Source: Anaerobacillus alkalidiazotrophicus (lineage in GTDB: Bacteria > Bacillota > Bacilli > Bacillales_H > Anaerobacillaceae). Taken from it: 64,000 bases of DNA. Every line of letters starts with the position of its first letter. Positions within the stretch are counted from its first letter, which is position 1. The stretch spans positions 440,899-504,898 of the forward strand of contig NZ_MLQS01000017.1 in assembly GCF_001866055.1 (NCBI RefSeq). Direction: 5' to 3'. The position numbers and the translations under genes are program-made. This document shows, in pieces, positions 26,485-47,460 of this stretch. The notes under the pieces were generated by a model. The model was given only the letters and a program-made list of their open reading frames with translations, had not been told where the DNA came from and did not search any database.

Positions 26485-26645
26485 TTTATCCCACTCTTAA
26501 GGGGCAAGTAAGACCCCCACCTCAAAACTTAAGAAAATCGAGAAGTTTAGGTGGGGGATAAACTGCCCCTAAAGGTCCGATATAGAATAACTTTCATCAG
26601 TGGGGGATGAAGGAAAACCCCCACTGATTGAAGTTCAGCTTTATT
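26485..26645 (+). repeat. Family 1 structured repeat, longest copy
   Basis: The segment starts after TTTAT with CCCACTCTTAAGGGGCA and ends near TGATTGAAGTTCAGC. Three helices are visible: an outer stem TTAAGGGGCA (26497-26506) with TGCCCCTAA (26564-26572), a hairpin CCCCCACCT (26514-26522) with AGGTGGGGG (26549-26557), and a perfect 11-bp hairpin (26596-26606 with 26618-26628). Shorter copies lie at 31411-31525 and 47405-47460. There is no ORF inside. The layout suggests the joined ends of an IS200/IS605-type element. Confidence 0.7.
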
Positions 26646-26710
26646 AGGCATTTGCTTCTTTTTAGGGAAGTGAGACTCGTTGAATTATAAATATCTAATA
26701 GTAAACACGT

Positions 26711-26745
26711 GAAAGTTAGCAGGGAAATACTTGCTAGCTTTTTTG
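26711..26745 (+). terminator. Hairpin with T-run in the minD-spoIVFA gap
   Basis: A short stem (AAGTTAGCA with TTGCTAGCTT) is followed by TTTTTTG. It would end transcripts running through the family 1 repeat from minD. Confidence 0.6.
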
Positions 26746-26820
26746 TTATATAAAGTGAGTTCTTCCATAAAAGAATATAGCATAACCTCTCGGGACAAGT
26801 CATATCTATAAGTAATAATC

Positions 26821-26890
26821 GTAGAATGTAAAATGTAAAATGAATGATCTTTTAAATAAAGATCTACCACACATCCATTTTACATTCTAC
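26821..26890 (+). repeat. Nested inverted repeat upstream of spoIVFA
   Basis: GTAGAATGTAAAATG (26821-26835) is perfectly inverted at 26876-26890, and inside it GATCTTT (26846-26852) pairs with AAAGATC (26858-26864). It ends 29 bp before the spoIVFA start. It could be a leader hairpin, an operator or a small palindromic element; no second copy was found in the window. Confidence 0.6.
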
Positions 26891-26919
26891 ATTTTATATA
26901 TAAAAGGGGATGAGGGTAG

Positions 26920-27708
26920 ATGGCGAATAGGGTAGACAAACTTCGTCGAGAAATTGAAGCTAGAAGGAAAAAGATTAATAGTTCGATTGGTAGGAAAGAA
27001 CGCTCACAACCTCAGTATTATCCTAGTCATAGTGAGTCAAGAGATGATTCTGAATTCTACTTTGCTGGTGATTCCGATGAGAAGGGACAACCAGAAGAGA
27101 AGTTTTTTCGAAAAGAGATTTTTGTCTTACAAGTGCTTGTTGCTATTTGTTTATTTTTAGTTGTCGGAATATTATTTAAAACTCAATCTCCTCAATTCGA
27201 AGGAGCTAGACAATTTGTAAAAACCTCTTTTGAAGAAGAATTTCAATTTACTGTTGTGGCTGATTGGTATGAAAATCAATTTGGTAAACCTTTAGCTCTA
27301 CTTCCAACAACAACGAATGTGGCATTAAATGATTTCGAGAGTGACGAATTACAAGTTGCATATGCTGTGCCAGCTGTTGGGAGAGTGGCACAAGGGTTTG
27401 AGCAAGATGGGAAAGGGGTCATAGTTGAGACGACCTCGAATTCTAATGTTGAAGCTGTTAAAAGTGGTATGGTAAGGTTTGTAGCAGAAGAAGAAACATT
27501 GGGTAAAACGATTATTATAGCTCACTATGATGGAGGTGAATCATGGTATGGAATGCTTGATCATGTAGAGGTAAACTTATACGATCATGTAGAGCCAGGT
27601 AGTAAGATTGGAACAGTATCTCTAAAAGACAATAATGGTTTTTACTACTTTGCGTTAAAAGAAGGAGAAACCTTCATTGATCCAATTGATGTGATTTCAT
27701 TTGACTAA
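26920..27708 (+). CDS. spoIVFA: Stage IV sporulation protein FA
   Basis: SpoIVFA holds the SpoIVFB protease in the outer forespore membrane with BofA until the forespore signal arrives. The 262-residue protein has a basic cytoplasmic N-terminus (MANRVDKLRREIEARRKK), one membrane helix (about residues 68-86), and a C-terminal degenerate M23/LytM domain. The latter contains VAQGFEQDGKGVIVET and WYGMLDHVEVN, without the full zinc ligands. GGATGAGGG precedes the ATG. It overlaps or abuts spoIVFB, as in other bacilli. Confidence 0.92.
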   Translation: MANRVDKLRREIEARRKKINSSIGRKERSQPQYYPSHSESRDDSEFYFAGDSDEKGQPEEKFFRKEIFVLQVLVAICLFLVVGILFKTQSPQFEGARQFVKTSFEEEFQFTVVADWYENQFGKPLALLPTTTNVALNDFESDELQVAYAVPAVGRVAQGFEQDGKGVIVETTSNSNVEAVKSGMVRFVAEEETLGKTIIIAHYDGGESWYGMLDHVEVNLYDHVEPGSKIGTVSLKDNNGFYYFALKEGETFIDPIDVISFD

Positions 27709-27709
27709 T

Positions 27710-28567
27710 ATGGGTTCCTTAGTTAAAAAAATTAAAATTAATCCACTTTTTTGGTTCGTAATCGGTATTGGTATTATTACAGGTTATTTTAGAGAAGTTA
27801 TCATGGTTTTTAGCATTGTTTTTATTCATGAAATGGGTCATAGTGTGGCGGCTCATTACTTTAAGTGGAGAATTCGAAAAATTGAACTTCTGCCTTTTGG
27901 TGGAGTAGCTGAGGTTGAAGAATATGGTAATCGTCCTTTAAAAGAAGAATTTATTGTAATTATAGCTGGTCCATTACAACACATATGGTTAATTTCCATA
28001 TCTTTTTTTCTCCTTCCGTTTGATTTTTGGACTAGTACCGACCACAAGTTGTTTTTAACTCACAACTTAATGATATTATTATTCAACTTACTACCTATTT
28101 GGCCACTTGATGGTGGTAAATTAATGTATTTACTCTTTTCCAAAAGACTTCCATTTCTTCAAAGCATTACTACAACTTTGAAAATCTCGTTGTTTTTATT
28201 ATTTTTGTTTACAGTCATTAGTCTTTATTTTTTTCCGTTTCATTTAAATCTGTGGGTAGTTTTACTATTTCTTTTGTTTAGTCACTATTCTGAATGGAAA
28301 CAAAGAAGTTATGCTTATATGCGCTTTTTAATGGAAAGACATAATCAGAAACAAAACCCTTTTATTCAAACGATACCGATTGTAGTTCCTGATAAATCAA
28401 CTGTACAAGATGTCATAAAAAGGTTTCAACGTGGTGTTAAGCACAAAGTTATCGTCAAAAACCAATCTTATGAACCAATGAGAGTTATTTCAGAAAAAAT
28501 AATTTTACAAGCTTTCTTTGAACAAAATAAGGCATCAGTACCTATTGGTCGAATTTTACCACCATAA
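27710..28567 (+). CDS. spoIVFB: Stage IV sporulation protein FB, intramembrane metalloprotease
   Basis: SpoIVFB is the site-2 protease that cleaves pro-sigma-K in the mother cell. The zinc motif HEMGH is at about residues 40-44, the second motif LLPIWPLDGGK carries the conserved Asp, and several membrane helices surround them. The C-terminal part (from about residue 220) is CBS-like. TTG at 27701 is in frame and would overlap spoIVFA by 8 bases. The ATG at 27710 is taken as the likelier start. The pair indicates a spore-forming organism. Confidence 0.93.
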   Translation: MGSLVKKIKINPLFWFVIGIGIITGYFREVIMVFSIVFIHEMGHSVAAHYFKWRIRKIELLPFGGVAEVEEYGNRPLKEEFIVIIAGPLQHIWLISISFFLLPFDFWTSTDHKLFLTHNLMILLFNLLPIWPLDGGKLMYLLFSKRLPFLQSITTTLKISLFLLFLFTVISLYFFPFHLNLWVVLLFLLFSHYSEWKQRSYAYMRFLMERHNQKQNPFIQTIPIVVPDKSTVQDVIKRFQRGVKHKVIVKNQSYEPMRVISEKIILQAFFEQNKASVPIGRILPP

Positions 28568-28570
28568 TTT

Positions 28571-28600
28571 TTGGTGTTTGTAATTAAAAGATGCTATACT
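28571..28600 (+). promoter_or_regulatory. Candidate rng promoter
   Basis: TTGGTG (28571-28576) and TATACT (28595-28600) are separated by 18 bases just after spoIVFB. A hairpin terminator begins only 8 bases after the -10, so transcripts would meet it almost at once. Confidence 0.45.
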
Positions 28601-28608
28601 TAAGTAGT

Positions 28609-28636
28609 AACCAGCCGTATAAAGGCTGGTTTTTTC
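28609..28636 (+). terminator. Hairpin between spoIVFB and rng, possible attenuator
   Basis: AACCAGCC (28609-28616) pairs perfectly with GGCTGGTT (28624-28631), followed by T. It may end the spoIVF transcript or attenuate rng. Confidence 0.75.
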
Positions 28637-28665
28637 ACCTTACTAGACGTTAAAGAGGGATACCA

Positions 28666-30150
28666 TTGAAATCATTTATTTTTAATATGTTAACAAATGA
28701 AAGAAGACTAGCGATTCTCGAAAATAAAAAAGTAGTAGAAATCTTAATCGAGCGTCCTCAAATTAATAAAATTGTAGGTAATGTGTACAAAGGTAAAGTA
28801 GTAAATGTACTTCCAGGAATGCAAGCAGCATTTGTGGATATTGGATTAGACAAGAATGGCTTTTTATATAGAGACGAGCTTTTGAGTTTTCAACAACTAG
28901 AAGAAAAAGATGAAGTGAAAAAAGAAAAATCAATCTCACAATTTGTAACAGTGGGGCAAGAGCTATTAGTACAAGTGACAAAAGAGGGATTCGGTAAAAA
29001 AGGACCAAGACTGACTGAAGTTGTTTCTTTTCCTGGTAAATACATTGTGTATATGCCAAATGGAGGTTATGTTGGTGTATCGAAACGGATGCAAACTGAA
29101 GATGTACGTGAGAAATGGCGTAAAATTGGGGAAGAACTTTGTGTTGGCAAAGAAGGTATGATTATACGTACAGCTTCTGAAAATTTAACAGAAGAGAATG
29201 TTGCTCAAGATTTATTTTTTCTACGGAAGCTTTGGGAAGACGTATGGAAAGACGGAAAAAACTTAAAACCACCTAGTTTAATTTACGAAGATAAATCAAT
29301 TTTAGAAAAAGTGATGAGGGACTTTGACTTTGATGATCTAGACGAAATAGTTATCGATTCAATGGACGAATATCTACTAATTAAAAATATGTTTCAGCCT
29401 TATCCAAACCTTTTAGAAAAACTTCGCTTCTATCAACAAAGGGAAAACATATTTTCATTTTATCATATTGAATCAGAGCTTGAAAAAGCTTTGCGAAGAC
29501 AAGTTTGGTTGAAAAGTGGTGCGTATTTAGTCATTGATCAAACCGAAGCTCTAACTGTTTTTGATGTAAATACCGGTAAATATACTGGAAAGTTAGATTT
29601 ACAAGAAACGATCGTAAAAACAAACATTGATGCTGCTAAAGAAATTGCAAGACAGTTACGACTTCGAGATATTGGCGGTATTATTATTATAGACTTCATT
29701 GATATGAAAAGCGATAAAGATAAACAAACTGTTTTAAATGCGTTTAATCAAACTTTAAAAAATGATCGTACCAAAACAAATGTAGTAGGATTTACTGGAC
29801 TAGGATTATTAGAAATGACCCGTAAGAAAGCCCGTCAAAATCTACAGGATAGTGTTTCGACTATTTGCCCGGCTTGTTTTGGTAAAGGGAAAGTATTTTC
29901 GGACGAAGCTGTTGCACATAAAGTAGAGAGAGCATTATGGGAATATAAAGGTATGGATAATGAAGCGTTACTCGTGGAAGTCCCAGCGAATGTTGTTCCG
30001 ATTCTTAAAGGTCCTAAAGACAAAAATCTAATCCGACTACAAACCGTTCTTCATTATCAACTATTTATTAAAGAAAACGAAAAGCTCGCTCCAAACGACT
30101 TTGAGATCCGATTCATAGGTAGTATCGAGGAAGTCGAACAAAGGTTGTAG
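28666..30150 (+). CDS. rng: Ribonuclease E/G family endoribonuclease
   Basis: RNase E/G enzymes cut AU-rich single-stranded RNA and have 5'-end sensing. The 494-residue protein has an N-terminal S1 domain (GNVYKGKVVNVLPGMQAAFVDIGLDKNGFLY, about residues 37-67) and the catalytic segment ALTVFDVNTGKYTG...GGIIIIDFIDM with the two metal-binding Asp. The zinc-link CPACFGKGKV lies near residue 404. Start is TTG at 28666 with AAGAGGGA upstream. It lacks the long RNase E tail, so RNase G-like is appropriate. B. subtilis itself has no such gene, while several other bacilli carry it at this position. Confidence 0.92.
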   Translation: MKSFIFNMLTNERRLAILENKKVVEILIERPQINKIVGNVYKGKVVNVLPGMQAAFVDIGLDKNGFLYRDELLSFQQLEEKDEVKKEKSISQFVTVGQELLVQVTKEGFGKKGPRLTEVVSFPGKYIVYMPNGGYVGVSKRMQTEDVREKWRKIGEELCVGKEGMIIRTASENLTEENVAQDLFFLRKLWEDVWKDGKNLKPPSLIYEDKSILEKVMRDFDFDDLDEIVIDSMDEYLLIKNMFQPYPNLLEKLRFYQQRENIFSFYHIESELEKALRRQVWLKSGAYLVIDQTEALTVFDVNTGKYTGKLDLQETIVKTNIDAAKEIARQLRLRDIGGIIIIDFIDMKSDKDKQTVLNAFNQTLKNDRTKTNVVGFTGLGLLEMTRKKARQNLQDSVSTICPACFGKGKVFSDEAVAHKVERALWEYKGMDNEALLVEVPANVVPILKGPKDKNLIRLQTVLHYQLFIKENEKLAPNDFEIRFIGSIEEVEQRL

Positions 30151-30206
30151 AAGTGTCTTTTGTTTTTCTTCACAAGCTGTTATTAAAATCTCGATTGGAA
30201 ACATCG

Positions 30207-30235
30207 TTGACTCTAACTACTAAAAATGGTATTAT
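30207..30235 (+). promoter_or_regulatory. Sigma-A promoter of the rplU operon
   Basis: TTGACT (30207-30212) and TATTAT (30230-30235) are separated by 17 bases, the best promoter match in the window. It lies upstream of the L21 leader. Confidence 0.8.
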
Positions 30236-30241
30236 ATTTTT

Positions 30242-30360
30242 TGTTAGTTATTTGGATAACCTCCAAAGAGCTATAACCGCTCATAAAAGGGTTTTAAAGA
30301 ATTTACTCGTGTAAATCACCCTCGATGGCGAGTCTGAGTATAATAAGGAGGTGCACGTTA
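30242..30360 (+). ncRNA. Ribosomal protein L21 leader (autoregulatory 5' UTR)
   Basis: The 125 bases between the promoter and rplU include a block AGAGCTATAACCGCTCATAA and then short paired segments around ACTCG...CGAGT. This agrees with the position and general appearance of the L21 leader of Firmicutes, by which the operon is thought to be regulated by a ribosomal protein. I cannot check the covariance model; the position is the main support. Confidence 0.5.
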
Positions 30361-30669
30361 ATGTACGCAATTATTGAAACTGGTGGTAAGCAAATTAAAG
30401 TTCAAGAAGGTCAAGAGATCTACATTGAGAAGTTAGATGCTGAAGTTGGTGCAACAGTAAGCTTTGACAACGTATTAATGGTTGGTGGTGACTCTGTGAA
30501 AGTAGGAGCTCCATTCGTAGAAGGAGCAACTGTTACTGCTAAAGTTGAAAAAGTAGGTCGCGCTAAGAAAATCTTAGTTTATAAATACAAAGCTAAGAAA
30601 AACTATCGTCGTAAGCAAGGTCATCGTCAACCTTACACTAAAGTTGTTATCGAAAAGATCAACGCGTAA
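30361..30669 (+). CDS. rplU: 50S ribosomal protein L21
   Basis: The 102-residue product [18 protein letters not shown]... ending [19 protein letters not shown] is a standard L21, which binds 23S rRNA in the large subunit. The frame continues upstream to 30325, but the ATG at 30361 has AAGGAGGTG before it and gives the family start. prp and rpmA follow closely. Confidence 0.98.
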
Positions 30670-30678
30670 GGAAATGAC

Positions 30679-31011
30679 ATGATTACTGTTACAGTTGTTC
30701 GACATACTGATAACAACATTGTTTCCTTTGAAATGAGTGGTCATGCAGATAGCGGGCCATATGGACAAGATATTGTTTGTGCTGGGGCTTCAGCCGTTTC
30801 ATTTGGAACTGTAAATGCTATCGATAAATTATGTGATGTTCAATTAGAAGTGGAAATGGATGATGATGGTGGCTTTCTCCGCTGCACTGTCCCAAAAGGT
30901 TTGGACGTGTCAACTTATGAGAAAGTTCAGCTTCTTTTGGAAGCAATGGTTGTTTCACTCACTTCAATTAGTGAACAGTACGGTAAACATATCAAAATTA
31001 GTGAAACCTAG
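30679..31011 (+). CDS. prp: Ribosomal-processing cysteine protease Prp
   Basis: Prp (YsxB) removes the N-terminal extension of ribosomal protein L27 in Firmicutes. The catalytic pair is visible: His22 in SGHADSGPYGQ and Cys34 in DIVCAGASAVS. The 110-residue length is normal. It lies between rplU and rpmA, as in all bacilli with this system, and its substrate gene follows with the expected cleavage site. Confidence 0.95.
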   Translation: MITVTVVRHTDNNIVSFEMSGHADSGPYGQDIVCAGASAVSFGTVNAIDKLCDVQLEVEMDDDGGFLRCTVPKGLDVSTYEKVQLLLEAMVVSLTSISEQYGKHIKISET

Positions 31012-31024
31012 GAGGTGAACTCAT

Positions 31025-31315
31025 ATGTTAAAAATGAACCTTCAATTTTTCGCATCGAAAAAAGGGGTAGGTAGTACAAAGAACGGTCGTGACTCAATCT
31101 CGAAGCGTCTTGGTACAAAGCGTGCTGACGGTCAAACAGTAACTGGCGGATCTATTTTAGTTCGTCAACGTGGAACACGTATTTACCCTGGTGTAAACGT
31201 AGGTAGAGGTGGAGATGACACTTTATTCGCTAAAGTTGACGGCGTAGTTAAGTTTGAACGCGTAGGACGTGACAGAAAGCAAGTAAGTGTATACCCAGTA
31301 GCTCAAGAAGCTTAA
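31025..31315 (+). CDS. rpmA: 50S ribosomal protein L27 with Prp-cleaved extension
   Basis: The product begins [14 protein letters not shown]. The LQFF/ASKKG junction (after Phe9) is the Prp cleavage site, giving the mature N-terminus that reaches the peptidyl-transferase centre. The rest is typical L27 (GSTKNGRDS...[10 protein letters not shown]). GAGGTG precedes the ATG. It ends the operon at a terminator; spo0B and obg, which normally follow, are not present. Confidence 0.98.
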
Positions 31316-31330
31316 GAACTCTAAAACGAT

Positions 31331-31359
31331 AAGTCCTAGCCATTTGGTTAGGGCTTTTT
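31331..31359 (+). terminator. Terminator of the rplU-prp-rpmA operon
   Basis: AAGTCCTAGCC (31331-31341) pairs, with two G-U pairs, with GGTTAGGGCTT just downstream and a T-run. Confidence 0.8.
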
Positions 31360-31410
31360 CTAATCATCTAAAATGTAAAGTAGTGTGTTTATATGTTTTG
31401 TATGGATGAA

Positions 31411-31525
31411 TTTTATCCCACTCTTAAGGGGCATTAAGGCCCCCACCTCAAAACGTAAGAAAATCGAGAATTTTAGGTGGGAGATGAAGGAAAACTCCCA
31501 CTGATTGAAGTTCAGCTATATTATA
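31411..31525 (+). repeat. Family 1 structured repeat, internally deleted copy
   Basis: It begins after TTTAT with the same CCCACTCTTAAGGGGCA block as the copy at 26485 and ends in the same TGATTGAAGTTCAGCT block. The segment between GGTGGG and GTGGGGGATGAAGG of the longer copy is missing. The final hairpin is GTGGGAG (31477-31483) with CTCCCAC (31495-31501). The other copy has GTGGGGG with CCCCCAC, a compensatory pair change. Confidence 0.7.
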
Positions 31526-31540
31526 CATTTTAGTTAGAAA

Positions 31541-31588
31541 AAAATAGGGTGTTCAAAAGCTATGCTTTTGAACACCCTATTTTTGATT
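31541..31588. terminator. Bidirectional terminator between rpmA and opuAC
   Basis: A perfect 20-bp stem (31541-31560 with 31564-31583) with A-rich and T-rich flanks lies between convergent operons, directly after the leftward opuAC stop. Confidence 0.85.
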
Positions 31589-32476
31589 TTATTTGCTTTC
31601 ACCTTTCATTTCTGCTACTTTTTCTTGATTATTATCAATCCATTCACGAGCTACGTCTTCGGCAGAGCGCCCATTATCAATTTCTACAATCATTTGTTCA
31701 ATATCACCAACATCAATACTCCAGTTGCTTAAAAATTCGTATGCTTCAGGAATACGATCTTTGAAATCATTATTCGTTAAAACATGAACCTCTGATGTAG
31801 CAAAAAATTCATCTTGTCCTTCTAGTACTTTTAAATCATAGTCGACAAACATTGGATGCGGTCTCCATCCAAGGAATACTACCGGTCTTTCTGCACCAAT
31901 TTGTCTTGCAACTTGGGCGAGCATGCCACCTTCACTAGATGCAACATATTGTAAATCTAAGTCAAACTCTTCAATCATCTCTCTTGAAGTAATAGTCATT
32001 CCAGCGCCTTCTTCAATACCATAGATTTCTCCATCAAAAATATCTTCATTTCCTTTAATGTCTTCAATTGAGTTAATTTCCTCTACGTATGTTGGGGTAA
32101 CCCACCCTAACTCACCGTCTGGATAGCTTATAGCAGTGCTATCTATGTTATCTCCAAATTGCTCCATATAGCTTGCGTGCATATCAGGTAACCAAGCATC
32201 CATGAAAACATCAATGTCACCTCGTGATAGGCCTGTATAGACACCACCAGCATCAGCTTCAATCTGGTTTACTTCATAACCCATATCCTCTAAAAGTAAC
32301 ATTGCAATCGTAGTTGGTGGAATGGTACTCGTCCAAGGAGTCATTCCAAATGTAATTGATTGGTCTTGAGCAGGTTGATCACCTGCTTGTGGGTCTTCTG
32401 CTGTATCTGCAGGACCGCACCCTATAATTAATGCAAAAATCGTAAACGTAAATACAAGTAATTTAAAATGTTTCAC
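31589..32476 (-). CDS. opuAC: Glycine betaine-binding lipoprotein of the OpuA importer
   Basis: The substrate-binding lipoprotein delivers glycine betaine (possibly proline betaine) to OpuAA/AB. The signal peptide ends in a lipobox at IIGCG (Cys20). An Asp-rich linker leads to an OpuAC-type domain with ITFGMTPWTSTIPPTTIAMLLLEDMGY, MDAWLPDMHASY and VVFLGWRPHPMF, whose tryptophans form the betaine cage. At 295 residues it is full length. It is last in the leftward opuAA-AB-AC operon. Confidence 0.92.
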   Translation of the reverse strand: MKHFKLLVFTFTIFALIIGCGPADTAEDPQAGDQPAQDQSITFGMTPWTSTIPPTTIAMLLLEDMGYEVNQIEADAGGVYTGLSRGDIDVFMDAWLPDMHASYMEQFGDNIDSTAISYPDGELGWVTPTYVEEINSIEDIKGNEDIFDGEIYGIEEGAGMTITSREMIEEFDLDLQYVASSEGGMLAQVARQIGAERPVVFLGWRPHPMFVDYDLKVLEGQDEFFATSEVHVLTNNDFKDRIPEAYEFLSNWSIDVGDIEQMIVEIDNGRSAEDVAREWIDNNQEKVAEMKGESK

Positions 32477-32498
32477 TATTTGTACCTCCTAGTTTTTA

Positions 32499-33332
32499 TT
32501 ACTTAGTTTTTTCACCAATACCTTGAGTAATCCTATCTAAAATGATGGCAAGAACAACAATTCCTAGTCCACCAGTTAACCCTAAACCAACATTAACCCT
32601 TGATATACCTGCTAAGACGACTGAACCTAGTCCTGGAGCACCAATCATTGAGGCGATAACAGCCATAGATAAAGCTAACATAATAGTTTGGTTGATCCCC
32701 GCCATGATCGTCGGTATTGCCATTGGTAATTGCACCTTTGTTAGCATTTGCCAATAGGTTGAACCAAATGCCCTGGCAGCTTCAACAACATCAGTAGGTA
32801 CTTGTTTTATCCCTAAGGTAGTCATTCTTACCGCAGGTGGAGTAGCAAAGACAAAAGTTGAGATAACTGCTGGTACTCCCCCTAAGCCAAATAAGAGAAT
32901 GGCAGGAATTAAATAAACGAAACTTGGTAAAGTTTGCATAAAGTCTAAAATGGGTCTAACTATCCTATTAACAACTGGAGATTTTGCGCTCCAAATACCA
33001 ATCGGTATACCAATTACTATAGAAAAAATTGTCGCAACAATGACAATCGCTAACGTTTGCATTGCAGCATACCATAAATCTACTGACCCTAAGTAAAGGG
33101 AACCTATTAATGTGAAAATAGCTACCCCAACCCCAGCAAAACGCCAAGCTAAGATAATTAATAGTAGCGCCATTAATTCAGCTGGTAAAAAATTCAATAA
33201 ATCAGTAACTAATGAAATAAAAGTAGCAACGATTGAACTGATTGAGTCAAAGAAGCCACCTAATACTGGTATTAACCAATTATTAACAAAGCGATTTGTC
33301 CATTCCTCTAAAGGTAGATGGAAGTAATTCAT
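32499..33332 (-). CDS. opuAB: Glycine betaine ABC transporter permease
   Basis: The 277-residue membrane protein has about seven hydrophobic helices and the ABC-importer EAA loop (VEAARAFGSTYWQMLTKVQLPMAIPTIMAGINQTIM). The N-terminal amphipathic stretch LPLEEWTNRFVNNWLIP is that of OpuAB/ProW. It begins on the final base of the opuAA stop, so translation is coupled. It forms the transmembrane channel of the osmoprotectant importer. Confidence 0.93.
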   Translation of the reverse strand: MNYFHLPLEEWTNRFVNNWLIPVLGGFFDSISSIVATFISLVTDLLNFLPAELMALLLIILAWRFAGVGVAIFTLIGSLYLGSVDLWYAAMQTLAIVIVATIFSIVIGIPIGIWSAKSPVVNRIVRPILDFMQTLPSFVYLIPAILLFGLGGVPAVISTFVFATPPAVRMTTLGIKQVPTDVVEAARAFGSTYWQMLTKVQLPMAIPTIMAGINQTIMLALSMAVIASMIGAPGLGSVVLAGISRVNVGLGLTGGLGIVVLAIILDRITQGIGEKTK

Positions 33333-34528: not shown

Positions 34529-34667
34529 AATCAATTTCTCCTTTGAGCTAGCTGTCTATTGATTATCGTTTGCTACTTCTCCACTAATATTCTTTTTTTG
34601 CAAAAGTGTATAAGAATAATAAAAAAAAGTGACTATATAAAAAAGGAATTGAGGAGGGAATCTGTTT

Positions 34668-34877: not shown

Positions 34878-34908
34878 TTTAAAGATGTTATACAGTATGA
34901 TTGCAATG

Positions 34909-35787: not shown

Positions 35788-35823
35788 ACATAATCAGAAT
35801 TTATAAATTTCTAACTTGGAAAC

Positions 35824-35992
35824 TGTCTAGCGCAAGCAGCCTACGAGCTCGGTCACATCAGTCAAGCAACTAACTTCAATTACCTCTTGAAATTCTTCGT
35901 TGATTAGCTTCATGCAGCTTTGCTCTTGAGCAAACGGAGTGGCACAGGAGCAGCTGCTCGTGACCAAGGCGCTTGCGCTTTTCTTCTGCTTA
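35824..35992. repeat. GC-richer Bacillaceae extragenic repeat
   Basis: This block starts TGTCTAGCGCAAGC and ends GGCGCTTGCGCTTTTCTT. Its ends pair as AGCGCAAGC (35829-35837) with GCTTGCGCT (35971-35979), and a palindrome GAGCAGCTGCTC sits at 35948-35959. It is clearly more GC-rich than its surroundings. From memory, repeats with these ends (TGTCTAG...GCGCTTGCGCTTTTCTT) occur often between genes in many bacilli; I cannot confirm this here. It lies directly upstream of the Pho boxes. Confidence 0.6.
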
Positions 35993-38242: not shown

Positions 38243-38244
38243 AA

Positions 38245-39129: not shown

Positions 39130-39153
39130 ATTTAATATATGGGGGAATGTTAG

Positions 39154-39996: not shown

Positions 39997-40012
39997 GGGG
40001 CGAGAAAAGTTC

Positions 40013-40669
40013 ATGCACACTAGAGAAACGTTTCATTCAGGGTTAAGTGGTTTAAAAGAAAGTATTGTCAAATTGGGTGAACAGGTTGATCAAGCTTTTC
40101 ATCATGCAATGGACGCCTTTGTTAATAATGATTTTGAAAAAATTCAGAATATTAAAGAAAACGATCTGAAAATCAACCAGCAAGAATTAGTTGTTAATGA
40201 AAAAGCAACGTTACTAATAGCAAGACAACAACCTGTTGCCTCAGACCTCAGAAAAATTATCGTTGCCTTTAAGATCTCTAGTGACCTAGAGCGTGTAGGT
40301 GATTTAGCGGTTGATATTTGTAAAGCCGCAGAAAGAATTCCTAAAACAGAAATGGAAATTGATACAACAATATTAGTAGAAATGGCTATCATTGCTAGTG
40401 GAATGGTTACAAATGCATTAAGAGCCTATGAATCAGGAAATGTTTTAGAAGCTCAGCAAATTGCCCACCTTGATGATCAGGTTGATGATATGTATGCACG
40501 ATTTGTAAAGCAACTTTTTAATATTGTTATCTCAGATCAATTAGAAATTGAACAAGTAACTCAGTTAGCTTTTATTTCACGCTATATTGAAAGAATTGCT
40601 GATTATGCGACAAATATTGCTGAGTTAATTATTTACGAAGTAAATGGTCAATATTTTGACTTAAACTAA
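40013..40669 (+). CDS. phoU: Phosphate signalling protein PhoU
   Basis: PhoU is a helical metal-binding protein that couples Pst transport to Pho signalling and phosphate homeostasis. The 218-residue product has two three-helix repeats with the E/D-rich motifs DLERVGDLAVDICKAAER and YIERIADYATNIAELI. The frame is open from 39923 inside pstB, but the ATG at 40013 gives MHTRETFHSGLSGLKESI, the family start, with AAGGGGCG upstream. Confidence 0.94.
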   Translation: MHTRETFHSGLSGLKESIVKLGEQVDQAFHHAMDAFVNNDFEKIQNIKENDLKINQQELVVNEKATLLIARQQPVASDLRKIIVAFKISSDLERVGDLAVDICKAAERIPKTEMEIDTTILVEMAIIASGMVTNALRAYESGNVLEAQQIAHLDDQVDDMYARFVKQLFNIVISDQLEIEQVTQLAFISRYIERIADYATNIAELIIYEVNGQYFDLN

Positions 40670-40682
40670 TGATAAGCTGACA

Positions 40683-40713
40683 AAGAGAGTGGGATTATAC
40701 CTACTCTTTTTGT
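40683..40713 (+). terminator. Terminator after phoU
   Basis: An imperfect stem (AAAGAGAGTGG with CCTACTCTTTTT) with a T-run separates phoU from the regulator gene. Confidence 0.65.
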
Positions 40714-40737
40714 TAAAGTTAGTTTCTGGAGGTAAGG

Positions 40738-41544
40738 ATGAGCCAACTAATACTCAAGATAAATCCAGACCCGATTATCACAACAAAAATCAGAGAGGAT
40801 TTTAACGCTGCAGGCTTTGGACTAATTCATACAAATGATATAGAAGAAGCTCTAGAAATAGTAGATAGATTTGAACCTACTATAATCCTTCTTGATTTAG
40901 ACTTTATCAGATTCCAAGCATTTGACTTTTGTAGGACGTTACGGCTGCAAAAAGATAATTGGACACCCTTGATTCTAATGTCGGAGAAAGACGAAGAATT
41001 TGATTTAGTACTTGGATTAGAACTAGGAGCAGATGATTATATTCGAAAACCAGTTAGATCTAAGGAATTGGTGGCGCGAGTTAAATCAATTTTGAGACGT
41101 CAAAGCATTTCATGGCCAAAAAACAAGGAGAAATTTTCTAATGGTACTAATAACCATGACATAATTATAATTGGAAAACTTACAATTTGTCCCTCAAATT
41201 ATACCATTAGGATAAATGATAAGATCATTGATTTTACAAGAAAAGAGTTCGAAATCATTTTATATTTATCTCAAAACAAAGGAACAGCTATATCACGAGA
41301 ACAACTTCTATCGGTACTAAACGAGGAAGAATTTTTAGCAGATGTACGTGTTATTGATGTTTTTATAAGCAGAATTAGGGAAAAAATTGAGCCATGTCGT
41401 AGTAAACCCTCGTATATAAAAACAGTTAGAGGCGTTGGATATATGATGCTCCATCAAAATTTACCTTACATAAAGAAAAGCGCAAGATCCCTTAATCATC
41501 CATGTACTTATCATGATAATGAATATCCCTTAAAAAGTTTTTAA
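40738..41544 (+). CDS. Atypical OmpR-family response regulator
   Basis: The receiver domain keeps the phospho-acceptor Asp53 (IILLDLDF), Ser82 and Lys104 (DDYIRKPV). At the first strand it reads LILKINPD, where active receivers have two acidic residues for Mg. A winged-helix DNA-binding domain spans about residues 145-240 (FTRKEFEIILYLSQNKG...DVFISRIREKIEP...RGVGYM). About 25 extra residues, including His, Cys and basic residues, follow the usual end. TGGAGG precedes the ATG. No histidine kinase gene is adjacent. It follows phoU after a terminator, so a link to phosphate is possible but unproved. Confidence 0.8.
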   Translation: MSQLILKINPDPIITTKIREDFNAAGFGLIHTNDIEEALEIVDRFEPTIILLDLDFIRFQAFDFCRTLRLQKDNWTPLILMSEKDEEFDLVLGLELGADDYIRKPVRSKELVARVKSILRRQSISWPKNKEKFSNGTNNHDIIIIGKLTICPSNYTIRINDKIIDFTRKEFEIILYLSQNKGTAISREQLLSVLNEEEFLADVRVIDVFISRIREKIEPCRSKPSYIKTVRGVGYMMLHQNLPYIKKSARSLNHPCTYHDNEYPLKSF

Positions 41545-41561
41545 ATTCGCCGCTAATGGAG

Positions 41562-41590
41562 AAAAGCCTATTCGTCATAGGCTTTTTCTG
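41562..41590 (+). terminator. Terminator after the response regulator
   Basis: AAAAGCCTAT (41562-41571) and ATAGGCTTTT (41577-41586) form a perfect stem with a T-run. Confidence 0.9.
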
Positions 41591-41768
41591 TTGCTTCTAA
41601 TTTATTGTTGACCCATTAGCTTACTCCAGTTCGCTTTTCAATATCATATATTCAACTCATAGACAGAATTAATATTTTTTAATAATAACTTTTACATTTG
41701 ATTAATATTTCCTTAACAAATTATTGGTATATTTGTCATATCGTGTAGAAACTAGGGGGTTGCTTTTC

Positions 41769-43508
41769 GTGAAATATATATATTTTAGTAAAAAAAATTC
41801 AAAGAAAGAAAGTAAAAAGAATTATTTGAATACTTTTCATACTGTATTATCAAAGATAAGTTTGCGAAACCGATTGTTATTTCTGTTTATTACTTTATTA
41901 ATTATAGCTACTAACGCCGTTGGAATAACATCCTATATAAAAGCAAAAGAAACAGTTATCCAAACAATTGAAAATCGTCTTCAACGAGAAGCTGAAATGA
42001 TGTCATACATTGCAACAAATTTAAAATTTTTATATGTAAGTGATATGGATTATTTTATGCAACAACTAGAAGTAAATGTCCGTTCACAACAAGGACAGTT
42101 AAATGAGGATGGTATTGAAGCTTACTTTTATTACATAAATAATAACGAAATTACACCTTTTCAAATAAATCAGGACATAGATATCTTGCTTTATCCATCT
42201 CTATTCGAAACAATTCAAAAAAATGAAACAAGAGTGTTCCATACAAGTATTGAAGGAGAAGATTATACAATATCAACGCACGAATTAAAGGAAATTGATG
42301 CTATGTATTTGATCGTTGTACCAACAAAATCTTATATAGACCCAATAAATGAGATTGCTAAATTTACAATAATGGTGATTATTGTTAGCCTAATTATTTC
42401 AGTTATTATTATTTTATTATTTGTACAAACATTAACGAACCCATTAAACGTTTTACAAAATACGATGAGGGAAGTTCGTGAAGGAAATTTAAGTAGTGCA
42501 ATTTCCATTAAAACAACATTACCTGAAATTATTTCTCTAAATAAGAGTTATAATGCGATGGTTGGGCAAATGCGACAAATGTTAAATGAAATTACAGATA
42601 CGACAGTCAAGTTAGAAAATACTGGTAGTGAATTGAAGAGATCCTCTGAAGGAGCGCTAGAGTATAGTCGTCAGCTGATTGAAGCTATTAGTGTTGTGAA
42701 AGAAGGGGCTGACCAAACGGCGGCGAATTCAGAAAGTAGTGTAAATAGTTTCAAAGATATAAAGCAAAAAGTTGAAGAAATGATGGGTAACATTAACTTA
42801 GTTTATAAAAGTTCAATTGGTATGAACACATCTGCTCAATGTGGAGAGAAAAATATTACTCAATTAATAAAAACCATTCATTCTTTTGAAGAAGATTTTG
42901 ATCATATGACAAAAACAATCCAACAAGTAAAAAATCATTCAAGCTCTATTGCTAATTTAGTTGGGTTAATCAATGGAATAGCAGAACAAACAAAATTATT
43001 AGCCCTAAATGCGACCATTGAAGCTGCTAGAGCTGGCGAATCTGGTAGAGGCTTTGCTGTAGTAGCTAACGAAGTACGGAAATTAGCAGAACAATCAACA
43101 ATTGCAACCGAAGAAATCACTCAATCTATTGGGACCATGGAACAAGTTAGTATCGTAGCTACAAACGAGTTCGATCATGTTTTGACAAAAATAAAGGCAA
43201 ACTTATCAGCAGCAAATGAATCAAAGGATTCTTTTGATAATCTTATGGAAGAAATCAATTCGGTAAGTAATAAAATATTAAGTACACAAGAACAACTAGG
43301 AGACTTACAGTTGATATTACCAAGTATTGAGCAATCAACCATTAGCTTTGCTTCGGTTTCCCAGGAAACTTTGGCTAGTGCTGAGGAAATGTTTGCAACA
43401 AGTGATGAGCAAATACAGCAAATGGAAAAAACGAATGAAATTGGGTCAAAGTTAACACAAACATCTAATTCATTATTAAACCTCACAAAACAATTTAAGC
43501 TAAATTAA
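41769..43508 (+). CDS. Methyl-accepting chemotaxis protein with extracytoplasmic sensor
   Basis: A basic N-terminus leads to a first membrane helix (about residues 34-56) and an extracellular domain of about 150 residues. A second helix ([20 protein letters not shown]), a HAMP linker and the MA signalling domain follow. The hairpin tip reads [40 protein letters not shown]. The frame opens at 41724, but the GTG at 41769 has AGGGGG about ten bases upstream. The ligand is unknown; the outer domain may be a small Cache-type fold. It should signal to CheA, controlling either flagella or the pilus. Confidence 0.88.
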
Positions 43509-43574
43509 AAAGAGATATGAAATTGAAGAAATAAGTTCATGTGAAGTAGCGATATGAAGGATTGGGGATTATAC

Positions 43575-44432
43575 ATGGTAATAAAAGTACTCCAAAATAA
43601 AAGTTTCTTTCAAAGATGGAAATTTAATCGAAGTTTAGCTAGGCATATGGAGTTAAAAAAATTAAAGTATAGTGAAATATTACAAGTATTAAAATATAAA
43701 AATATTAATACATTGTTTCAACCTATTGTAGGTGTTGTGAACAGTTCATTAATCGGTTATGAAGCATTAAATCGTCCAATTAAACCAAGAAACTTTTCAT
43801 CGACCGAAGATTTTTATCGGTTTTTAGGGGATACAGATCAAATATTTCAATTTGAACAGTTAACACGTCAACATTCAATTGAGAAATACGTTGAACTAAG
43901 TTGGAAAAACAAAAGTACAAATAAAGAGTTTATCTTTTTAAATGTTCATCCTAAAGTATTAAATGATGCAAATTACCGAAGCGGAGAAACACTTTTTTTC
44001 GTAGAGAAATACGGGCTTGACCCGAGGCAAATTGTTTTTGAAATAACAGAAAAGCAAGCGGTACATGATTATACTCAATTTGAAAGAGTATTAGCTAATT
44101 ATCGTTATCAAGGCTTTAAAATTGCTATTGATGACGTTGGTGCAGGGTATAATAGTTTGAAAACGATGATGTGTATAAAGCCGGATTTCATTAAATTGGA
44201 TCGATCATTTATTCAAAAGATAGATAAAAATCATTCACAACAAGAGCTAGTCAATCTATTTGTTCAATATGCCTCTCAAGCAAACTCTAAAGTTATAGCA
44301 GAAGGGGTCGAAAGGTTTGAAGAGCTACAAATATTAATAAAGTTAAAGGTCGATTATGCCCAAGGGTATTATATCGGTAGACCTTCTGTAAGTCTTATTG
44401 AAAGTGATCTTGACTATAAATTTTCAATTTAA
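43575..44432 (+). CDS. EAL-domain c-di-GMP phosphodiesterase
   Basis: The 285-residue protein is almost entirely one EAL domain. The motif is present as YEALNRP, with EITEKQAVHD, FKIAIDDVGAGYNSL (DD pair), FIKLDRSFI (Lys) and VIAEGVE, so the catalytic set looks intact. No membrane or sensory domain is visible apart from about 45 N-terminal residues. ATG at 43554 is in frame. The ATG at 43575 follows AAGGATTGGGG and is preferred. It lies 66 bp after the chemoreceptor and may share its transcript. It would lower c-di-GMP, a likely ligand of the PilB encoded here. Confidence 0.85.
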   Translation: MVIKVLQNKSFFQRWKFNRSLARHMELKKLKYSEILQVLKYKNINTLFQPIVGVVNSSLIGYEALNRPIKPRNFSSTEDFYRFLGDTDQIFQFEQLTRQHSIEKYVELSWKNKSTNKEFIFLNVHPKVLNDANYRSGETLFFVEKYGLDPRQIVFEITEKQAVHDYTQFERVLANYRYQGFKIAIDDVGAGYNSLKTMMCIKPDFIKLDRSFIQKIDKNHSQQELVNLFVQYASQANSKVIAEGVERFEELQILIKLKVDYAQGYYIGRPSVSLIESDLDYKFSI

Positions 44433-44462
44433 TACTTTTCAATATGAAATTCCTATAAGTAT

Positions 44463-44529
44463 AACTCCACATTATTCATTCGATTTTTGTACATAATACA
44501 TTTGAAAAATAATGTGATAATGTGGAGTT
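44463..44529 (+). repeat. Perfect inverted repeat enclosing the hydrolase ribosome-binding site
   Basis: AACTCCACATTAT (44463-44475) is perfectly inverted at ATAATGTGGAGTT (44517-44529). The right arm contains the GGAG used by the gene starting at 44538, so a folded leader would hide it. Alternatively it is an operator. Confidence 0.65.
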
Positions 44530-44537
44530 GGTATTTT

Positions 44538-45359
44538 ATGGACAGAAATCAAATTAAAAGCGAGTTTATTACAATTTCTAATGTTAAAATTTTTTGTGAA
44601 CATGTTATAAATGGAAAACCTCCAATGCTCTTCATTCACGGCTTCGCATCCTCTACATATACTTTTAACCGTCTTTTTCCACTAATAGAAAAACATTTCT
44701 CTATAATTGCTATTGATCTTCCAGGGTTTGGGAGGAGTGAAAAGTCTACAACATTTGTCTATTCATTTAAGAATTATGCCGAATTAATTGAGCAGTGTAT
44801 CGATTATTTTAAGCTTACAAATGTAACGATTGTTGGTCACTCTATGGGTGGGCAAATTGCATTATATACCGCTAAAGCTGTGCCAGAAAAAATCAATAAA
44901 TTGATTCTATTAGGATGCTCAGGTTATTTAAAACGCGCAAAAAAGTTCCTAATATATGCATCCTACTTACCGTTCTTTAACTATATTATCTACTTCTACA
45001 TTCATAAAAAAGAAGTGAAAGATTACTTGAAAAATGTATTTTATAATCACTCATTAATCAACGATGAAATGATTAGTGAATTTCGTAAACCGTTATTAGA
45101 AAAGAAGTTTTATCAGTCACTTACTCGTTTACTTAGATACCGTGAAGGCGACCTACTATCTCATCAACTAAAGGCTATTTACACGCCTACATTGTTGATA
45201 TGGGGGGAGGAAGACAATGTTGTTTCAGTAAATATAGGGAAGAGGTTAGTTTATGATTTACCAAATGCAAAACTAATCACATATAAAGAAACTGGTCACC
45301 TCATAACTGAAGAAAGACCGGTCGAAGTTTTTGAAGACATATTATCATATACATCTTAA
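44538..45359 (+). CDS. Alpha/beta-fold hydrolase
   Basis: The 273-residue protein has the oxyanion region LFIHGFASSTYTFNRL, nucleophile elbow VGHSMGGQ (Ser), a late Asp in WGEEDNVV and His in ETGHLI, the classical Ser-Asp-His triad. A cap region with hydrophobic helices (FLIYASYLPFFNYIIYFYIHKK) might bind lipids. The frame opens at 44487; the ATG at 44538 is chosen for its GGAGTTGG site. The substrate is unknown. It is convergent with the PAP2 gene. Confidence 0.85.
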   Translation: MDRNQIKSEFITISNVKIFCEHVINGKPPMLFIHGFASSTYTFNRLFPLIEKHFSIIAIDLPGFGRSEKSTTFVYSFKNYAELIEQCIDYFKLTNVTIVGHSMGGQIALYTAKAVPEKINKLILLGCSGYLKRAKKFLIYASYLPFFNYIIYFYIHKKEVKDYLKNVFYNHSLINDEMISEFRKPLLEKKFYQSLTRLLRYREGDLLSHQLKAIYTPTLLIWGEEDNVVSVNIGKRLVYDLPNAKLITYKETGHLITEERPVEVFEDILSYTS

Positions 45360-45381
45360 AGTGAAACTCATTCAATTATTA

Positions 45382-45927
45382 CTATTGTCCAGTAAAGAAA
45401 ACGAATGAGCAAAACACAACAATGATTGACGATACAGTCCCTAGAACTGCACCTATAATACAGTCAGTTGGATAATGTAGACCGAGATACATACGTGAAA
45501 TTCCAACTAAAATGGCGATTGGTAAAAAGAAAATGCTCAACATTGGCATGTGAAGAGAAAAAACGATAGCTATAGAAAAAGCAGCCGTTGTATGACCGGA
45601 GGGGAATGAGTAATCTGTAAGTGGGTTTGAGCATAATGTAACGTTAGCTAATTTGTTATAAGGTCGCTCTCGGCAATACATTTTTTTAATAATGTGAACG
45701 ATGATATGACTTAAGGATAGGGAAATAAGGGCTTCAATAGCCCATGTCTGAACAACTTTTTCTGAAAAGATCATCACGATAAGCAATGTAAGTATTGTAA
45801 ATGTAGCTCCCCCTATATGGGTGATTTTAGGTAGGATATAGTCAAAAGCTCTACATCTTAATTTTGAATTTACGAAATGAAAAAGCTGAGTATCATTTAC
45901 AGAAATCCAATTTACAAATCGGTCCAA
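45382..45927 (-). CDS. PAP2-superfamily membrane phosphatase
   Basis: The three PAP2 motifs are present: KKMYCRERP, FPSGHTTA and SRMYLGLHYPTD, set among about five or six membrane helices. Such enzymes dephosphorylate undecaprenyl pyrophosphate, phosphatidylglycerophosphate or phosphatidic acid at the outer face. The frame extends to 45948, but a TGGGAGGG site lies inside it. The TTG at 45927 is therefore the likely start (181 residues). A small divergent region of about 200 bp separates it from the glycosyltransferase gene. Confidence 0.85.
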   Translation of the reverse strand: MDRFVNWISVNDTQLFHFVNSKLRCRAFDYILPKITHIGGATFTILTLLIVMIFSEKVVQTWAIEALISLSLSHIIVHIIKKMYCRERPYNKLANVTLCSNPLTDYSFPSGHTTAAFSIAIVFSLHMPMLSIFFLPIAILVGISRMYLGLHYPTDCIIGAVLGTVSSIIVVFCSFVFFTGQ

Positions 45928-46129
45928 CGAATTTCCCTCCCAGTACAATTATTGTAGGTTTAAAGGTATTCACTACGCTTCCTTCTACTTCCTATCATAA
46001 TACATAATTGTAAAGATCACGTTAGTGTCCTGTTGAGATTTTTGTTAAATCTTAATATGAGCTAAATATTATTTTCATAATTATTTGTTAAGTTATAATT
46101 GAAACTACTAATTATGGGAGTGAGTGAAA

Positions 46130-47290
46130 ATGCGTATAGCTATATTTTCTGATACCTACGCCCCCGAAATTAATGGGGTTGCAAAAACTTTAAAGCGATA
46201 CACGGACTATTTAGAAAAAAAGGGTATTGAATATAAGTTATTTGTTCCGGAAAGTAGTACAGCAGTTCCAACAGTCCCTCAAGTTCAACGTTTTACAAGT
46301 ATTCCTTTCTTATTGTACCCTGAATGCCGAATAGCCCTTCCTAATCCAGTGCACATTAAGCAAACATTAGAAGAATTCAAGCCAACTCTTATTCATATCG
46401 CTACGCCATTTAACCTTGGCCTTTTTGGTCTTCATTATGGAAAAAAACACAATATTCCAATGGTAGCATCCTATCATACGCATTTTGATGATTACCTAGA
46501 GTATTACCATTTAACCTTTTTGCAAAAATGGATTTGGAAATACATGGCATGGTTTCATGATTCTTTTGAAAAAGTTTATGTACCTTCACAAAGTACGAAA
46601 GAAAAGCTGCTTAACCAAAAAATTCACAATAATATCGATATTTGGGGAAGAGGTGTAAATCATGATTTTTTTACACCGCTTAAACGAGCATCTGACATAA
46701 GAAAAAAATATAATATTAACGAGAAGAATGTTCTTCTCTATGTTGGGAGGATTGCTCCAGAAAAAGATGTTCATACTGTTTTAGAGACATTTCATGCATT
46801 ACCAGAAAGGGTAAAAAAAGATACCCATCTGCTTATTGTTGGGGATGGTCCACTATTTAAGCAGTTATCTGAACAAAAATATCCGAATATTACATGGACA
46901 GGATTTAAAAAAGGTGAGGAATTGGCAGAGATTTATGCTTCTAGTGATGTCTTTATCTTTCCTTCATCTACAGAAACATTTGGAAATGTTGTATTAGAAG
47001 CACTTGCCTCTGGAATACCTGTTATTGGAGCGAACGAGGGAGGTATTCAACATCTTATTTCTCATGGAGAAACTGGCTTTTTATGCGGTAAGAAAAATGT
47101 AGAAGAATTTGTTTATCAAACTACAATTCTATTAGAGCAAGAATATTTACGTAATGAGTTTGCAGAAAATGCACGACGTTTTGCATTAACTCTTTCGTGG
47201 GATGAAATCTTTGACCAATTGATTAATAGCTATCAAGATATCATATATAAATCATGGCTTGCAAACAGCCGGAATAGACATTATGCATAG
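46130..47290 (+). CDS. GT4-family glycosyltransferase
   Basis: The N-terminal domain begins MRIAIFSDTYAPEINGVAKTLKRY, the GT4 glycine loop, and contains SYHTHFDDYL. The C-terminal domain has VLLYVGRIAPEKDV, LIVGDGP and FPSSTETFGNVVLEALASGIPVIG (the E-x7-E donor-binding motif). This resembles diacylglycerol or phosphatidyl-inositol-type mannosyl/glucosyltransferases that make glycolipids. GTG at 46124 is in frame, but the ATG at 46130 has GGGAG at nine bases. The PAP2 and hydrolase neighbours are compatible with a lipid role. The 386-residue protein is full length. Confidence 0.88.
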   Translation: MRIAIFSDTYAPEINGVAKTLKRYTDYLEKKGIEYKLFVPESSTAVPTVPQVQRFTSIPFLLYPECRIALPNPVHIKQTLEEFKPTLIHIATPFNLGLFGLHYGKKHNIPMVASYHTHFDDYLEYYHLTFLQKWIWKYMAWFHDSFEKVYVPSQSTKEKLLNQKIHNNIDIWGRGVNHDFFTPLKRASDIRKKYNINEKNVLLYVGRIAPEKDVHTVLETFHALPERVKKDTHLLIVGDGPLFKQLSEQKYPNITWTGFKKGEELAEIYASSDVFIFPSSTETFGNVVLEALASGIPVIGANEGGIQHLISHGETGFLCGKKNVEEFVYQTTILLEQEYLRNEFAENARRFALTLSWDEIFDQLINSYQDIIYKSWLANSRNRHYA

Positions 47291-47368
47291 ATAATTATTT
47301 GGATTAGACCATAACATATCGTACTATGCCAACATATTTTAGTAGATTGTTAATCGAATATTAATCAT

Positions 47369-47408
47369 AAAGTGATTTGCTCTAACCTTTAGAGTAAATC
47401 ACTTTTTT
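47369..47408 (+). terminator. Terminator after the glycosyltransferase gene
   Basis: A 15-bp stem with one G-U pair (47369-47383 with 47391-47405) ends in TTTTTT. The family 1 repeat fragment starts within this T-run. Confidence 0.85.
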
Positions 47409-47460
47409 ACCCACTCTTAAAGGGCATTAAGACCCGCTATGATTGAAGTTCGCTTTATAG
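47405..47460 (+). repeat. Family 1 repeat, short degenerate copy
   Basis: After TTTAC it reads CCACTCTTAAAGGGCATTAAGACC, then jumps to TGATTGAAGTTCGCTTTATA. It keeps the two ends of the longer copies and lacks the interior hairpins. Confidence 0.65.

Follow-up and report, generated by a model that had tools for sequence, protein, structure and literature searches.

A folded, TTTAT-bounded non-coding repeat family of Bacilli that resembles palindrome-associated elements and may be moved in trans

The locus analysed here raises the question of what kind of element can occur as several copies with common ends but different interiors, and which enzyme might move it. Within the window, by which we mean the whole stretch of 64,000 nucleotides analysed, the three copies of the preliminary description were recovered with like ends and differing interiors, all on the + strand. 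All three are intergenic. Copy 1, the full-length form of 155 nt (26490..26644), has a minD-like gene on one side and an M23 peptidase gene on the other, is preceded by the target-type pentamer TTTAT (26485..26489) and terminates in TTTAT (26640..26644). Copy 2, an internal-deletion form of 105 nt (31417..31521), lacks the segment that two GTGGGGGAT repeats enclose in the long form, and its right end reads TATAT instead of TTTAT. Copy 3, a terminal-only form of 49 nt (47410..47458), has lost what lies in the long form between a pair of CCCCCAC repeats, so the interiors of the three copies are nested deletions. The short target proposed earlier to the left of each copy is TTTAT for copy 2 as well (31412..31416), but copy 3 has the imperfect TTTTA (47405..47409).

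A covariance model built from 24 copies of the element returned copy 1 with E=2.9e-35, a score that follows by construction because copy 1 is one of the 24 model sequences, and retrieved copies 2 and 3, both outside the model, with E=4.6e-15 and E=0.012, respectively. A probable decayed fourth copy at 15025..15169 (+ strand; covariance model E=1.2e-4) adds to the three described before. That the resemblance is a product of chance or an alignment artefact has a negligible probability and is refuted for copies 1 and 2: copy 3 taken alone is weak and folds no better than shuffled sequences, but the score of copy 2, the match of copy 1 in the nearest genome compared, Anaerobacillus alkalilacustris DSM 18345 (G001; E=6e-66), and five forms of ~50 nt with the same ends among the G001 loci read all speak against it.

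The element is widespread. In G001, we found 62 BLAST pieces at E<=10 and 50 at E<=1e-3, the clear copies measuring ~50–213 nt, which, like the 49–155 nt of the window copies, is too short for a transposase. Another genome, G192, has 109 matches, G050 and G061 have 10 and 15 BLAST pieces, and the carriers amount to 43 of the 398 sampled Bacilli genomes, covering 25 of 145 genera. Copies in the IMG/VR contigs L225–L228 are matched by model R1 as well, and L228 carries a gene of the heterocycloanthracin/sonorensin family, which we take to point to a host of the B. cereus group. BclA_C was tried as a marker for genomes of this group and discarded as unspecific, being present in 95 of the 398 genomes. 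Two copies gave no match among phage records, and a plasmid blastn with three copies gave no B. cereus-group record among the matches listed, in a collection that may include none; plasmids of the group were likewise not found among the 60 of 4013 records listed in a tblastn search with TnpB. Together, the copies, those of the window included, are one mobile, non-coding family.

The boundaries of the element were defined in G192 with 80 copies from a list of 92 among the 109 matches (17 matches stood outside the list, and 12 of the 92 were omitted, 8 as shorter than 130 nt and 4 others). TTTAT is found on the left of 70 and on the right of 74 of the 80 copies, and the flanks are otherwise unrelated, save that they are rich in T/A and that G is scarce at right +1. 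One pentamer is altered in 16 of the 80 copies, never identically on both sides, and the rate of change in the pentamers does not exceed that in the ends. The earlier description overlooked that TTTAT also occurs at the right end (TATAT in copy 2), and the five-letter motif therefore stands on both flanks. Such an arrangement looks identical to a fixed 5-bp target duplication, as would be produced if the copies were MITEs of a DDE transposase making 5-bp TTTAT duplications. The direct repeat flanking most copies agrees with that origin, as does the classing of the bcr1 repeat as a MITE or MITE-like element in parts of two reports (PMC3733652, PMC3446304). However, we regard it as very improbable, as the element has no terminal inverted repeat (at best 9 of 20 ungapped matches between the consensus ends at offsets 0–5) and as the supposed duplication consists, at both margins of the 80 copies, nearly always of the same five letters, unlike ordinary target duplications.

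Comparison with relatives for empty sites, suggested in the preliminary description, yielded one: at the site of copy 2, G001 reads flank-TTTAT-flank (GATGAATTTTAT^TATTCATTT), retaining the TTTAT that stands left of the copy. This one site excludes the refuting condition of that description that no empty site exists. The site of copy 3 was considered as a second precise empty site and rejected, since G001 has another abundant repeat (starting CAGTATCAGAATTT) there, to which the shared letters belong; at the site of copy 1, G001 has yet another repeat (famX), and that site is therefore not empty either. Also rejected were a G046 copy missing from G192, where the junction is blurred, and the site of a second G046 copy, where G192 has unrelated sequence. 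Six genomes contain head-to-tail tandem units with one common TTTAT (TTTAC in G335). A fixed target of 4–5 nt to the left of the element, as is characteristic of IS200/IS605, is present in the family.

Copy 1 is structured, as had been proposed, with a minimum free energy of -67 kcal/mol (z -6.96; 0 of 200 shuffles equally good), but the outer stem and two hairpins first drawn are corrected to a long 5' domain (26488..26581, + strand), in which an outer stem and an inner hairpin make up helices 1 and 2, and a 3' hairpin domain (26584..26640, + strand; helix 3), which adjoins the right end. Taken alone, copies 2 and 3 gain little or nothing over shuffled sequences in folding (z -1.9 and 0.0, respectively). 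The structure test used 15 near-full-length loci of the 28 loci L192–L219, 13 shorter or looser ones being omitted. Changes on both sides were observed in 20 of 46 pairs, in comparison with 10.0 (sd 2.0) in shuffles and at most 13 in slid controls, and in 57 cells, in comparison with 15.8 and at most 16; helices 1 and 2 account for 12 of the pairs and helix 3 for 8. The element folds into two long imperfect hairpins, with covariation in support, and palindromes lie close to both termini, as in the palindrome-associated transposable elements (PATEs). Read on one strand, it consists of 5'-TTTAT, the 5' domain, the 3' hairpin and TTTAT-3', and pieces of the interior have been lost between short direct repeats.

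In keeping with the absence of a transposase from the window, noted before, seven Y1/TnpB proteins found no relative there (tblastn, best E 0.33). Genes for tnpA or tnpB bounded by the element's ends, for which a search had been advised, did not appear in the 53 + 44 loci inspected (~1.5 kb on each side; part of all hits). Frames of ~200 aa with a Y1 domain occur in many carriers, and the presence of Y1 is weakly associated with the element (34 of 43 carriers vs 21 of 37 element-free genomes, the latter drawn non-randomly from those without a match in the 398-genome survey; p=0.052). The domain is absent in 9 of the 43 element-bearing genomes, and none was found in G050 and G061. In the loci read, Y1 genes are not flanked by elements, the exception being G343, where one copy and a Y1 gene are ~0.7 kb apart. 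Several candidates for an autonomous partner were rejected: the IS200 elements of G001 have other ends and a target near TTTAATT; the G001 element with tnpA and tnpB (L065) and some of the ~200-aa Y1 genes are not bounded by the element's ends; and the two IS605 copies of G192 have other ends and seem to start at TTGAT. Right-end-like matches near the tnpA/tnpB loci L066, L105 and L102 proved separate or partial, and the copies at G001 contig starts, which resembled the right end of some larger element, turned out to be broken up by another insertion sequence. The preliminary description was right about a structured element that is mobile and non-autonomous and lies 3' of TTTAT; the element also has no inverted repeats and behaves like a PATE of the IS200/IS605 type. 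Its derivation from IS200/IS605 is unproven, and the other refuting condition of that description, no relation to any IS200/IS605 ends, may still hold, because tnpA/tnpB with these ends did not turn up in the loci inspected and 9 of 43 carriers lack a Y1 domain.

The orientation of the copies bears on the enzyme. In G192, 58 of the 80 copies are oriented with the replication fork (p=2.9e-4 vs the 52% share of the target motif), and the bias points the same way in each of four gene contexts (22:10, 11:2, 15:6 and 8:2; one-sided p 0.04, 0.02, 0.06 and 0.07, respectively). The neighbouring genes are split, both running with the element in 24 and both against it in 21 of the 80 cases. In G001, 34 of 42 rows, those with more than 6 end mismatches being dropped, are on the G-rich strand, a count confounded with gene direction; the G001 row L012 (79 nt) re-reads the right end of another copy. 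The trend is reversed in G211, with 9 copies with and 20 against the fork (p=0.06) among the 29 of 76 matches that are listed on C4. By analogy, the fork-following orientation in G192 is as for single-strand transposition of the IS200/IS605 type. A replication-oriented bias is also described for other IS families in part of PMC5371812.

The element could now mainly be a functional RNA or regulatory structure (a terminator, a UTR element or a TnpB-type guide scaffold) that was mobile in the past. Base pairing is kept across genera, interior pairs included, the window copies are intergenic, and in B. cereus the bcr repeats, 18 families together, are transcribed in 84 of 165 cases in ATCC 10987 and 62 of 155 in ATCC 14579, according to part of PMC3446304. 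On the other hand, the orientation in G192 tracks replication while the neighbouring genes are split, most of the fold is missing from truncated copies, an Rfam search over the three window copies gave no match at E<=1, and the TnpB domain is missing in 3 of 7 carriers, and we consider this role quite unlikely. Somewhat less unlikely is movement by another enzyme, such as a site-specific recombinase of the serine or tyrosine type that acts on TTTAT, an idea put forward in print for bcr repeats. TTTAT on both sides of the element, the carriers devoid of Y1 and the reversed trend in G211 are consistent with a recombinase, whereas the covarying hairpins and the fork-following orientation in G192 would be unexpected for double-strand recombination.

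On balance, we lean toward a PATE- or bcr1-like non-autonomous element that is mobilised in trans, in all likelihood by a Y1 transposase. The enzyme would be a Y1 (HUH tyrosine) transposase from the IS200/IS605/TnpA-REP superfamily whose gene lies elsewhere; it would recognise the hairpins while the lagging-strand template is single-stranded and cut 3' of both TTTAT motifs, and the single-strand circle would then enter 3' of a TTTAT elsewhere. Copy 1 has an AAGG at +10 to +13 that looks like what we take to be the left guide of IS608. More tentatively, and with considerable doubt, the copies may belong to a class-wide family of folded single-strand mobile elements with a modular build, bcr1 being only its B. 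cereus branch; these would depend on a host-borne HUH transposase unlinked to any insertion sequence and would have gained or exchanged lineage-specific hairpin modules (63 nt in G192, ~52 nt in G001) between the end domains.

New here are the wide distribution of the family and the conservation of its modular fold. A family of similar appearance in 25 of the 145 Bacilli genera sampled, which in G192 has 109 matches, tight TTTAT boundaries and a replication-linked orientation, lets the question of the moving enzyme be addressed directly in harmless hosts; the family would further account for many intergenic hairpins that Bacilli genomes leave without annotation. Among known systems, IS608 and ISDra2 of the IS200/IS605 family use the lagging strand for insertion 3' of TTAC and TTGAT and duplicate no target, as given in parts of PMC8612924 and PMC5371812. 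Our family resembles them in its insertion 3' of a short fixed target, its end hairpins, its lack of inverted repeats and its orientation with replication in G192, the trend being reversed in G211, and differs in that none of the loci inspected has tnpA/tnpB between such ends. REP sequences and their TnpA-REP (RAYT) proteins are similar as many small palindromic repeats thought, in the relevant parts of PMC3733652 and PMC6006769, to depend on a HUH transposase in trans; here, apart from the G343 copy, the Y1 genes of the loci read are not flanked by elements. The PATEs of Haloquadratum walsbyi, as far as the portion of PMC3119063 used here describes them, are alike in lacking terminal inverted repeats, in carrying palindromes close to either end, in their non-coding size and short target, in including terminal-only forms of 52 bp that arise by deletion between direct repeats, and in palindromes that are landing sites for other mobile elements. 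The differences are that our hosts are Bacilli and not haloarchaea, that the loci inspected yielded no IS605-type element whose ends match, and that a long two-domain fold is kept over many genera. The bcr1 repeat of the B. cereus group is, by its description in parts of PMC6542083, PMC3446304, PMC2267715, PMC3733652 and PMC8725734, a structured sequence of ~150–170 bp with tens of copies and a TTTAT motif, and the window family, at ~155 bp and with the same motif, agrees with this; in the parts of PMC4877379 and PMC5541007 at hand, 'bcr1' occurs in a reference or primer name only. The mobility of bcr1 is described, in the portions of these sources cited, only as a possible recombination-like process. 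The same portions describe bcr1 as restricted to the B. cereus group, whereas the window family occurs in Anaerobacillus and across the sampled genera of Bacilli.

The preliminary description had claimed three stretches with common ends and differing interiors, and re-reading of all three bore this out. Without the left pentamer, copy 1 spans 26490–26644, copy 2 31417–31521 and copy 3 47410–47458. R1, a covariance model of the element built from 24 copies, matched copies 2 and 3 with E = 4.6e-15 and E = 0.012 and copy 1, by construction as one of the 24, with E = 2.9e-35. An R1 match at 15025–15169, flanked by genes for a type IV leader peptidase and a PilM-like protein, is a probable decayed fourth copy. 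Just right of copy 2, a strong hairpin (CAAAAGCTATGCTTTTG core; 31541–31583) is likely a shared terminator and gave a weak match to a microRNA model, far under that model's cut-off. One arm of an exact 27-bp inverted repeat (18850–18876 and 47490–47516) lies 32 bp right of copy 3.

The fold was assessed with 21 rows, comprising copy 1, a copy from Anaerobacillus alkalilacustris DSM 18345 (G001) and one representative each from 19 other genomes or records, with shorter representatives left out. In the resulting 46-pair fold, 92% of cells are paired, and two-sided changes occur in 20 of the 46 pairs (shuffles 10.0, SD 2.0; slid controls at most 13) and in 57 cells (shuffles 15.8, SD 3.3; slid controls at most 16); derivation from the same rows partly favors this fold. 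From the first alignment, RNAalifold had derived a consensus of just 14 pairs with a covariation term of -0.42 kcal/mol. The size classes differ by defined pieces: copies of ~105 nt lack that between two GTGGGGGAT repeats and copies of ~50 nt that between two CCCCCAC repeats, while in those of ~206–222 nt an additional hairpin-like module separates the domains, and this module differs between G001 and a second carrier genome, G192.

Of 398 Bacilli genomes, 43 had R1 matches at E ≤ 1e-4, representing 25 of 145 genera, under strict filters and with at most seven candidates scored per genome. When seven of these carriers were searched more closely, G192 had 109 matches and G211 had 76, with 4 to 15 in each of the remaining five. 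By BLAST, copy 1 matched 14 of 61 genomes, including G001, to which the window is close (33% of its sampled 31-mers are common to both); at least 62 pieces were found there at E ≤ 10 and at least 50 at E ≤ 1e-3, with 40 of 178 candidates scored. As blastn at E ≤ 0.01 gave no match to copy 1 in six other genomes of this genus (G002–G007), the family seems patchy within it. A short copy with both ends lies in CP079755.1 (221561–221631; L189 2980–3071), whose record name is Klebsiella grimontii plasmid pNY3A; this is an odd place for a Bacilli element, perhaps explained by transfer or a mixed assembly.

The family is, with near certainty, mobile and non-autonomous. The expectation of empty sites in a close relative held at site 2, where the window has ATGGATGAATTTTAT, the copy and TATACATTTTAG and G001 has ATGGATGAATTTTAT followed by TATTCATTTCAG; as a caution, another repeat sits just upstream in G001 and limits the directly alignable left flank to ~16 bases, the older flank resuming beyond it. 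At sites 1 and 3 of G001 the element is also absent, but other repeats are present and the junction is not clean. Among 80 G192 copies read with flanks, TTTAT forms the left pentamer in 70 and the right end in 74, and 16 have one of the two pentamers altered, none with the identical change on both sides. Change per site is similar in pentamers (2–2.5%) and element ends (1.9–4.1%), and altered pentamers may therefore be simply later mutations. The outer flanks are T/A-rich with no common sequence, and the first base to the right is G in just three of the 80. Head-to-tail units with one common TTTAT occur in G050, G414, G317, G018 and G211, and with TTTAC in G335; since the units are near-identical in several arrays, these may have been amplified rather than inserted separately.

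Other repeats meet the element in G001. An insertion sequence ending in TTAGCCTGATGACATTG lies at the same palindrome point in three copies (contigs C46, C41 and C38; L011, L028 and L168) and elsewhere in two more (C34, L154; C1:765 kb, L147); the palindrome insertions are reminiscent of SMR-A elements attacking PATEs (palindrome-associated transposable elements). A second abundant family (CAGTATCAGAATTTATAAATTTC...), with one window copy at 35793–35851 and many loci in G001, lies there at or close to each of the three sites that the element occupies in the window. A third, famX, with a similar core (CTTAAGGGGCATAGACCC), replaces copy 1 at site 1 (C50, ~229.3–229.5 kb) and matches 13 further fetched G001 loci, some partially.

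For the movement of the element, single-strand transposition by a Y1 (HUH tyrosine) transposase is our best guess, held by a slight balance of probability. The Y1 domain (PF01797) was present in 34 of 43 carriers versus 21 of 37 non-carriers (P = 0.052). The suggested tnpA or tnpB between the same ends was not found: none of the 53 + 44 Y1/TnpB loci examined is bounded by them, and one Y1 locus, in G343, has an element copy ~0.7 kb away. Two of the first seven carriers checked lack Y1 and three lack the TnpB (OrfB_IS605) domain; the mobilizing enzyme may have been lost in some hosts, be unlinked or not be Y1. Orientation relative to replication was also computed. In G192, where the sign of the GC skew switches between 1.71 and 1.80 Mb, the TTTAT-left strand is fork-directed, that is, on the lagging-strand template, in 67 of 92 copies (P = 1.9e-5, Fisher test, 1.75-Mb cut), while TTTAY itself is ~52% fork-oriented (sum over 20 sampled stretches). 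The 80 copies read divide 58 with to 22 against the fork, and by gene context 22:10 where genes run with the fork, 11:2 against it, 15:6 between convergent and 8:2 between divergent genes (one-sided P = 0.04, 0.02, 0.06 and 0.07), neighbors being called from open frames only and four of the 80 copies having no called neighbor on one side. Because gene direction confounds the G001 count (34 of 42 rows lie on the strand that is locally richer in G) and G211 shows 9 with versus 20 against the fork (P = 0.06; 29 of 76 matches used), the strand rule holds strongly in a single genome but does not generalize.

The element is real, widespread and PATE/bcr1-like. R1-like copies occur in IMG/VR contigs (L225–L228), and L228 also carries a gene of the heterocycloanthracin/sonorensin family as well as one for AimR, a content that we take to point to the Bacillus cereus group; its second copy presumably resembles bcr1, a repeat of that group. 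The titles and abstracts listed from the open-licence PMC literature, a scope outside which most subscription papers fall, contain no description of the family outside the B. cereus group. By its description in PMC6542083, bcr1 is alike in size, TTTAT and habit. With PATEs, the element shares the features decidable here, a set to which target duplication and an IS605-element link do not belong. It is also like the PATEs of Haloquadratum in having terminal-only short forms, ~50 nt here and 52 bp there, the latter arising by repeat-mediated deletion according to PMC3119063.
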